Source: Gemmatimonadaceae bacterium (GTDB taxonomy: Bacteria > Gemmatimonadota > Gemmatimonadetes > Gemmatimonadales > Gemmatimonadaceae). Taken from it: a DNA stretch of 64,000 bases. Numbering within the stretch: position 1 is the stretch's first letter; every line of letters starts with the position of its first letter. The stretch covers positions 1-64,000 of the forward strand of contig JAICWO010000017.1 in the NCBI GenBank assembly GCA_025934775.1, given 5' to 3'. The notes under the pieces are model-generated. The model saw nothing but the letters and a program-made list of their open reading frames with translations, was not told where the DNA came from and made no database searches. Made by a program: the position numbers and the translations under genes. This document shows positions 31,154-33,169 of this stretch, one piece after another.

Positions 31154-32362
31154 TCAATTCACTCGCGTGACGCTGAGCGCGACCGCGTCGCCACCGCCGA
31201 GGCAGAGCGTCGCGAGCCCGCGCTGCTTGTTGCGATCCCGGAGCGCATAGAGAAGCGTGGTGAGCACGCGTGCGCCGCTCGCGCCGATGGGATGGCCGAG
31301 GGCGATCGCGCCGCCGTTCACGTTGACGCGGTCCCAATCCCAATTCAACCCCATGCCGTCGGCGATCGCCTGCGACGCGAACGCTTCGTTCGCTTCGATG
31401 AGATCGTAATCGCCGATCGCCGTGCCGCTCTTCTTCATGAGATTCTGAACGGCGTGGATCGGTGCGAAGAACAGCTCGCGCGGCTCGACCGCCCCCGTGG
31501 CGTACGCGTCGATGCGCGCCAGAATCGTGAGGCCGTGCGCGCGCGCGAATTCCTCCGACGTCACGACGAGCGCCGACGCGCCGTCGTTGAGGCTCGACGC
31601 GTTCCCCGCGGTGACTGAGAGCTGGTCGCTCTTCTCCTTGCCGGGAAACGCGGGACGCAGCTTGCCGAGCGACTCGGCGGTTGTGTCTTTCCGCGGGCCC
31701 TCGTCGGTGTCGATCGTCGTCGTGCCTTTCCTCCCCTGGATCTGCACGGGCACGATCTCGTCCTTGAACTTGCCGCTCTCGATCGCGCCGACGGCTTTCT
31801 GGTGCGACTTGACCGCGAACTCGTCCTGCATCTGCCGCGTGACGCCCGCTTTCTGCGCGGTGTACTCGGCGTGGCTGCCCATGTGCACGTCGCAGAACGA
31901 ACACCACAGGCCGTCCTTGATCATGCCGTCGACGAGCGTCTGATCACCGAGCTTGACGCCGGCGCGCATTCCATAGTTGTAATAGGGCGCATTCGACATC
32001 GACTCCTGGCCGCCGGCGACGACGACCTGCCGGTCGCCCGCCTTGATCGATTGCGCGGCGAGCATCACGGCCTTGAGCCCCGAGCCGCACACCTTGTTGA
32101 TCGTGAGCGCCGACACGGTCGCGGGCACGCCGGCCTTGAGCGACGCCTGCCGCGCGGGCGCCTGGCCGACGCCGCCTTGGATGACGTTGCCCATGATCAC
32201 TTCTTCGATCTGCATGAGATCGACGCCGGCGCGCTCGACGGCGGCGCGGATCGCGATGGCGCCGAGCTCCGGCGCCGTGAGCGGCGCGAGTCCGCCGAGG
32301 AATTTGCCAATCGGGGTGCGGGCGGCCGAGACGACGACGGCCTGCCGGGATGTATCCGTCAT
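31154..32362 (-). CDS. Acetyl-CoA C-acetyltransferase (thiolase)
   Basis: A 402-residue biosynthetic-type thiolase that condenses or cleaves acetoacetyl-CoA. The nucleophile is Cys92 in NKVCGSG. The other active residues are His357 in [10 protein letters not shown] and Cys387 in CLGGGDA. An unusual short Cys pair (WCSFCDVH) sits in the loop domain around residue 155, where most thiolases have DGLTDAF; this SFCD variant would alter the loop over the active site, and its meaning is not known. It is the first gene of the minus-strand run thiolase-bioY-CPBP, directly after a region with a large inverted repeat. Confidence 0.93.
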
Positions 32363-32454
32363 TGCAGCAAGAGCTCCGGAGGAAAGAGGGGCAATGGGAA
32401 AATAACGAGAGGAGGGGCTGAGGGCTGAGGGCGAGGCTGGGGGCTGGAGGCGGA
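32363..32454. other. Thiolase upstream region with G-rich tract
   Basis: This 92-base stretch upstream of the thiolase holds tandem GGGCTGAG-like units and further G runs (32413-32450), which might form a G-quadruplex on the plus strand. No standard promoter was recognised. It runs directly into the inverted-repeat element. Confidence 0.4.
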
Positions 32455-32736
32455 GCTGACAGCAAGCCGGCAGTTCCCAGCTCGGCTATTCGCTATCAGC
32501 GACAGCTATCAGAGGGATTTGGAAGTGTGTAATGAGATCGGGGGTCGGCTTCCGCTGGCGGTGTACGCGAGTCGAGGCACGACACGAAGGCTGTGCACAC
32601 CCATTTCCGCATCGATGCTCGGAAATGCCCCGTGGGGTGCAGCACGCGCTCCCATGCAACGCTTCGTTCCGAATTCCTCCGATAGCTGTCGCTGATAGCG
32701 AATAGCCGAGCTGGGAGCTGCCAGCTTGCTGTCAGC
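32455..32736. mobile_element. 282-bp element with 66-bp terminal inverted repeats (MITE-like)
   Basis: The arm at 32455-32520 is repeated in inverted orientation at 32671-32736, with 61 of 66 positions identical on my alignment. Both arms contain the repeat-rich wording GCTATTCGCTATCAGCGACA. The 150-base core has no supported gene and contains short palindromes such as CATCGATG flanked by TTTCCG/CGGAAA. Non-autonomous transposon-like elements have this build, but no target-site duplication or matching transposase is evident, and the whole could instead be a large structured repeat. It lies between the thiolase and padR. Confidence 0.6.
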
Positions 32737-32812
32737 GCCCTCCCGCCCTCTTGACTTGTCGCACTCTTCCATACAGACTCTCCATAGAACATCTCCCTAG
32801 AGAATCTCCCCC

Positions 32813-33169
32813 ATGCCCCGCCTCCCTCTCCTCAAAGGCACCCTCGATCTCCTCGTCCTCCGCGCCCTCACCTGGGCGCCGATGCACGGGTTCGAGATCG
32901 TCACCTGGCTCGAGCGCGCCGCCAACGGGCAGCTCGAGCTCGAAGACTCCGCCCTCTATCAGGCCGTGTATCGCCTCGAGGAGAGAGGGTTCCTCGCCGC
33001 GGACTGGGGCGTGACCGAGAACAATCGCCGAGCGCGGTACTACAAGATCACCGCCGCCGGACGCGCCCATCTGCGCGCGGAAACCAAGAACTGGATGCAG
33101 TACGCCGGCACCGTCACCGCGGTGCTCAGCGCGGGCAAAGACGCGCGGCCGGCGACGGCTGGCGCGTGA
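32813..33169 (+). CDS. PadR-family transcriptional regulator
   Basis: A 118-residue PadR regulator. The winged helix is marked by LLKGTLDLLVLRALTW, MHGFEIVTWLER, LEDSALYQAVYRLEERGFL and RARYYKITAAGRAHL. PadR proteins of this short type repress adjacent transporter genes and respond to small toxic compounds. Its stop overlaps the GTG of the permease (GTGA), a pairing seen repeatedly in Acidobacteria and Gemmatimonadota, so it probably controls that permease. The inverted-repeat element ends 76 bases before its start and may contain or disturb its promoter. Confidence 0.9.
   Translation: MPRLPLLKGTLDLLVLRALTWAPMHGFEIVTWLERAANGQLELEDSALYQAVYRLEERGFLAADWGVTENNRRARYYKITAAGRAHLRAETKNWMQYAGTVTAVLSAGKDARPATAGA

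Follow-up and report, generated by a model that had tools for sequence, protein, structure and literature searches.

Between a thiolase gene and padR, and thus outside rRNA, a Gemmatimonadaceae genome carries a long inverted repeat whose nature is the subject of this study. The window (the entire 64,000-nucleotide stretch analyzed) poses the question of whether this structure is a mobile element or repeat family member, or whether it serves the genes beside it.

Structure of the hairpin

The two arms (positions 32452-32524 and 32667-32739) measure 73 nt each, are 92% complementary, and are separated by a 142-nt spacer, which bears out the long inverted repeat beside padR described in the initial annotation; it is also, as that annotation held, the clearest repeat structure of the window, being the longest and best-matched inverted repeat across it. 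The RNA fold of the element is predicted at -199 kcal/mol, against -111 ± 5 kcal/mol for shuffled sequences (z = -17). The space between the arms had been described as free of genes and indeed contains nothing convincing, the listed open reading frames overlapping the element only mechanically. The features of the locus are as follows.

31154-32362, minus strand: thiolase gene (PF00108/PF02803, family match), neighbor outside the element
32409-32459, no strand: degenerate G-rich heptad tract of GGGCTGA units outside the left arm (tandem repeat finder), with similar tracts beside several other copies
32452-32524, plus strand: left arm, family-conserved part approximately 32471-32525 (inverted repeat and copy alignment)
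32525-32666, no strand: core between the arms, gene-less, 64% mean identity, remnant of intervening-sequence protein (IVP) undetected (copy comparison)
32667-32739, minus strand: right arm, family-conserved part approximately 32660-32719 (inverted repeat and copy alignment)
32813-33169, plus strand: padR (PF03551, family match), neighbor outside the element

The element has fuzzy boundaries, the parts of the arms that are conserved across copies being those given in the list. The GCTAT-like sub-repeats previously noticed in the arms are real, as the self-identity of the left arm at a lag of 7 nt (0.41) is the highest among lags 3 to 21. In the heptad tract directly outside this arm, the tandem repeat finder reported a period of 7 (32415-32446) and a period of 19 (32409-32459).

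A dispersed family of copies

In the own genome (4.88 Mb in 47 contigs, 99% complete), the search identified 11 full-length copies, namely the window copy and ten others which are 77 to 84% identical to it, together with two shortened palindromic copies (C12:105142-105375 and C3:163213-163407) and a half copy (C41:74448-74528). The arms are approximately 92% identical among the full copies, with mean pairwise identities of 93% for the left arm, 91% for the right arm, and 64% for the core, and the copies have unrelated genes as neighbors. The similarity between the arms of one copy does not exceed that between copies; the left and right ends thus stay distinct, which argues that copies spread as units, and gene conversion of one arm by its partner is ruled out on the same grounds. 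Local duplication or chance is ruled out by the multi-copy family and by a fold far beyond that of the shuffled sequences, and the single, locally duplicated copy that had been named beforehand as speaking against a mobile family did not materialize.

No match to the family was obtained in 58 relatives, five of them congeners (E <= 1e-5). The syntenic regions of the congeners were located with flanking sequence and then read directly. The gap between queE and queC spans 562 bp in the own genome versus 189 to 236 bp in all five congeners, in which no inverted repeat above noise is present at this site. At the thiolase-padR site, congener G004 lacks an inverted repeat above a score of 24, an inverted heptad array of another sequence (GGTGGAC...GTCCACC) occupies the site in G005, and the heptad tracts of G003 form no matching inverted pair; species thus seem to differ in the element that fills this site. 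That the family spread by insertion is well supported, and the suggestion of a non-autonomous mobile element or a large structured repeat family finds support in its multiple copies, its absence from the 58 relatives, and the site that is empty in five congeners.

Other repeats were observed in the course of this comparison. The thiolase-padR gap of congener G002 (L142, G002:C11) holds an unrelated long hairpin with a 115-nt arm (score 64), several palindromes of the GGGGTCTGACCCC type precede padR in that of congener G001 (L143, G001:C76), and another inverted repeat family, with GTCATCCCGAGCG motifs, is present in the own genome (L372, G000:C47:9800-15027).

The family member that encloses a gene

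Two family arms lie approximately 480 bp apart on contig 20 (G000:C20:262418-263036). Genes for the 23S rRNA intervening-sequence protein (IVP/S23; PF05635) are located among heptamer repeats, and the own genome was, therefore, searched for this protein family. Seven such genes were found, of which one, intact, is situated exactly between both contig 20 arms. The arms make up an inverted repeat of 89 nt in which the family's inner end, GAGGAATTTGGA, is present, and the arm search revealed no second gene enclosed by them in the own genome. Where a matching transposase had been envisaged, none was found, and the gene-bearing member encodes an IVP instead.

The IVP is homologous to XCC0516 (2GSC; E value of 3.6e-37), the structure of which is a pentamer of four-helix bundles (PMC4990558). 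The bAvd Pfam model was matched weakly by 11 of 17 IVP sequences (best E value of 5e-7, below the curated cut-off), from which a homologous fold of IVP and bAvd appears likely.

Two other routes to the present copies were considered and rejected. Spread driven by a reverse transcriptase or a RAYT is ruled out, since the own genome yielded no match to RVT_1 (PF00078) or to the Y1 transposase family (Y1_Tnp, PF01797). Derivation by internal deletion, leaving IVP fragments, is likewise ruled out, as a tblastn comparison of IVPs with the gene-less copies returned only noise (best E value of 0.018).

Inverted heptad arms at IVP loci

Of the six remaining IVP genes in the own genome, five are flanked by inverted repeats above the shuffle maximum; these repeats all differ in sequence, and one extends to 233 nt at 94%. 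Across this order and its sampled families, a flanking inverted repeat (counted from a score of >=40) was present at 55 of 69 IVP loci versus 2 of 158 control windows, typically 30 to 150 bp away from the domain. A scan of the collection, which employed a narrow IVP alignment and a score threshold of 36 and covered approximately 20 phyla, detected such repeats at 59 of 78 IVP loci versus 0 of 145 controls, and a third locus set yielded 28 of 46 versus 0 of 92, the controls being windows from the same loci rather than matched intergenic genes. Detectable arms are missing at approximately 20 to 25% of IVP loci.

The arms share a period and a polarity: the best lag equals 7 in 47 of 50 arms across phyla and in 37 of 55 in this order, and, of the same two sets, 48 of 50 and 53 of 55 are G-rich on their inward strand. 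The 7-nt period of the window's left arm is weaker than that of typical IVP arms. Arm sequence is locus-specific and follows the IVP protein only among close relatives; co-evolution of IVP and arm was tried as an explanation and rejected (Mantel rho of 0.08, a value reached in 99 of 2000 permutations and owed to close pairs).

Two further observations concern the placement of IVP genes. Three of them (L271, L262, and L267) occur inside a 12.5-kb span of one contig in a Vreelandella record (G060:C12:17745-30252), with arms of up to 212 nt, and five gammaproteobacterial IVP genes (L384, L386, L387, L388, and L390) have tRNA genes within approximately 100 bp.

Gene-less copies of other IVP arms

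When nine genomes were searched with the arms of 21 IVP loci, gene-less copies were recovered for many of them and, among the matches listed, essentially in the genome of origin only. Arm copies without a gene number at least about 20 in genome G023, at least about 30 in G020, and at least about 15 in G009. The own genome harbors a second gene-less family of at least six loci (L235 to L240; approximately 410 to 550 bp), with the 233-nt arms that also flank the contig 7 IVP gene; no IVP remnant was found in these six satellites.

Heptamer repeats and a prediction

Xanthomonas genomes contain GGGAATC heptamers, with 70 to 75 convergent inverted pairs (PMC4692102). If heptads are part of IVP elements, a genome selected for GGGAATC should, therefore, hold an IVP with GGGAATC arms. 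A genome was chosen by GGGAATC arrays alone, the pattern being present in one (G433) of 369 genomes of one class, and the prediction held. The genome has a single IVP match (L292, G433:C14:68006-68197), broken in frame and located between genes reading as accB and accC, which is flanked by inverted GGGAATC units; the inner GTTCAAGC of its arms recurs elsewhere in G433, in a pair that encloses no gene. The reversed control pattern also matched one genome, G221, which is IVP-positive as well and has perfect GGGCCAA heptad arms (31/31), and the base rate of IVP in a draw from this class was 28 of 143 genomes.

Heptad arrays occur at 25.3 per Mb in seven IVP-positive genomes of the order versus 2.7 per Mb in seven IVP-negative ones (P = 0.02; densities from sampled stretches, seven versus seven, uncorrected for phylogeny). 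Arrays with periods of 6, 8, 9, and 10 were no commoner in the IVP-positive genomes of this comparison. Hairpins follow the trend of the arrays, with 20 in IVP-positive and 5 in IVP-negative genomes (small samples, uncorrected for phylogeny).

Intervening sequences of 23S rRNA

One gammaproteobacterial IVP gene (L389:277-2799) lies within a 23S rRNA gene as a classical intervening sequence (IVS), with two in-frame stops, and its arms are inverted and 7-nt periodic, as at other IVP loci. The Coxiella IVS possesses a 28-bp terminal stem with GACAGAT heptamers ahead of the S23 open reading frame, and earlier authors have proposed IVSs to be remnants of transposition or of mobile elements (PMC4990558). 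No report linking IVP genes with inverted heptad arms beyond the Coxiella IVS was found in an open-access library that lacks most subscription journals.

Proposed mechanism and alternative explanations

Of only seven IVP genes in the own genome, one is found in the sole family member that encloses a gene, a link to the IVP element that was arrived at by starting from the repeat. The window copy shares its arms with the IVP-bearing copy on contig 20 and has no IVP gene itself; it is, therefore, filed as a satellite of an IVP inverted-arm element. We propose that it is probably a gene-less, non-autonomous, REPIN-like satellite, moved in trans by the IVP, which we infer to be the driver of hairpin spread.

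The IVP, which is a four-helix bundle and a relative of the diversity-generating retroelement (DGR) protein Avd, would act in trans, recognizing the arms either as hairpin DNA or as a transcript, and hairpins with matching arms would be moved or copied by it into intergenic sites. We know of no DNA cutting by IVP itself; cutting and joining may be borrowed from host replication, repair, or some other nuclease, a suggestion prompted by the lack of a detectable reverse transcriptase or Y1 transposase in the genome. Heptads may lengthen and shorten by slippage, which would leave every lineage with arms of a distinct sequence. On this view, classical IVSs of 23S rRNA would be elements of this type that inserted into an rRNA loop, from which RNase III removes them.

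The main rival treats the IVP as a passenger, the hairpins arising by slippage, recombination, or another mover and the IVP inserting into, or surviving in, their loops. Gene-bearing copies are indeed far fewer than gene-less ones, which hold no IVP remnant, heptad tracts without IVP occur, and rRNA IVSs likewise occupy hairpin loops. It is less readily reconciled with gene-less families that share arms specifically with an IVP locus of the same genome, or with IVP-negative genomes that are nearly heptad-free while other periods are equally frequent (in a small sample), and we regard it as unlikely, though to be taken seriously.

That the element is a conventional MITE, mobilized in trans by the DDE transposase of an insertion sequence that is diverged or missing from the draft assembly, is improbable. 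The terminal inverted repeats, non-coding core, and dispersed intergenic copies fit this description, the assembly comprises 47 contigs, and the transposase survey was one of the Y1 family; against it, a genome that is 99% complete has no further gene-bearing locus with these arms, and the arms are far longer than usual and have fuzzy heptad edges. No target duplication was seen, the edges being too fuzzy and the congener flanks too diverged for a duplication or an exact end to be read. A MITE would, moreover, leave the IVP genes in the gene-bearing copy and in IVP loci elsewhere unexplained.

A structured regulatory RNA, or an attenuator or terminator with padR or the thiolase operon as its target, as the initial annotation had also suggested, is suited by a very stable predicted hairpin within an intergenic region but is very improbable, given that copies elsewhere adjoin unrelated genes, that the site is empty or otherwise filled in congeners, that compensatory change at only 1 of 73 pairs (a pair broken by 4 of the 11 copies) rules out selection on RNA structure, and that no Rfam family reaches its gathering score, the only match, to MIR1858, falling far below it and reflecting the long hairpin.

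The IVP-driven reading of the hairpin family may extend further, as IVP genes between inverted heptad arms may tie rRNA intervening sequences to the heptamer repeats of bacteria, two subjects which papers treat separately except where heptamers are noted in the Coxiella IVS. Should this link hold, IVSs, S23/IVP, and heptamers would belong to a single system in which the protein has a name, the DNA end is defined, and natural substrates are at hand, and a class of mobile element without a known transposase would be added, with relatives in approximately 20 phyla. More tentatively, and with somewhat less than even confidence, minimal mobile elements that lack a recognizable transposase could form a widespread class defined by IVP/S23, whose heptad-armed hairpins and gene-less satellites would explain rRNA IVSs and many heptameric repeats, including G-quadruplex repeats.

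Comparison with known systems

Among described systems, REPINs and their RAYTs, as described in PMC3116915 and PMC2817692, resemble the present family in that dispersed, gene-less hairpins have sequence in common with the ends on either side of a gene that each family possesses once in that genome. They differ in that the gene of the window family encodes an IVP rather than a Y1 tyrosine transposase and in that its arms are longer and 7-nt periodic. The family thus works like a REPIN in which IVP replaces the RAYT, yet it is not a REPIN, having no Y1 transposase.

With MITEs it has in common the inverted-repeat ends, the short non-coding core, and the dispersed intergenic copies; a cognate transposase was not found at any locus with the same ends, an IVP being the only gene enclosed by them in the own genome, and the family is not a proven MITE. 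A resemblance to DGRs is confined to the IVP, which resembles the accessory protein Avd by its weak matches to the bAvd model, whereas the own genome has no reverse transcriptase (0 matches to PF00078) and, therefore, no DGR.

In the 23S rRNA IVSs of Leptospira and Coxiella, as in the contig 20 copy, an inverted repeat holds an IVP gene in its loop. The window family is, in contrast, intergenic, dispersed, multi-copy, and mostly gene-less, and the window hairpin, lying outside rRNA, does not strictly qualify as an IVS. Finally, the heptamers GGGAATC of Xanthomonas, GGGGAYT of Nostoc, and TAACTGA of Beggiatoaceae, together with STRR repeats, are, like IVP arms, G-rich 7-nt intergenic units, from which the window element differs in having degenerate heptads inside a longer conserved arm; the papers on these repeats draw no connection to IVP genes.
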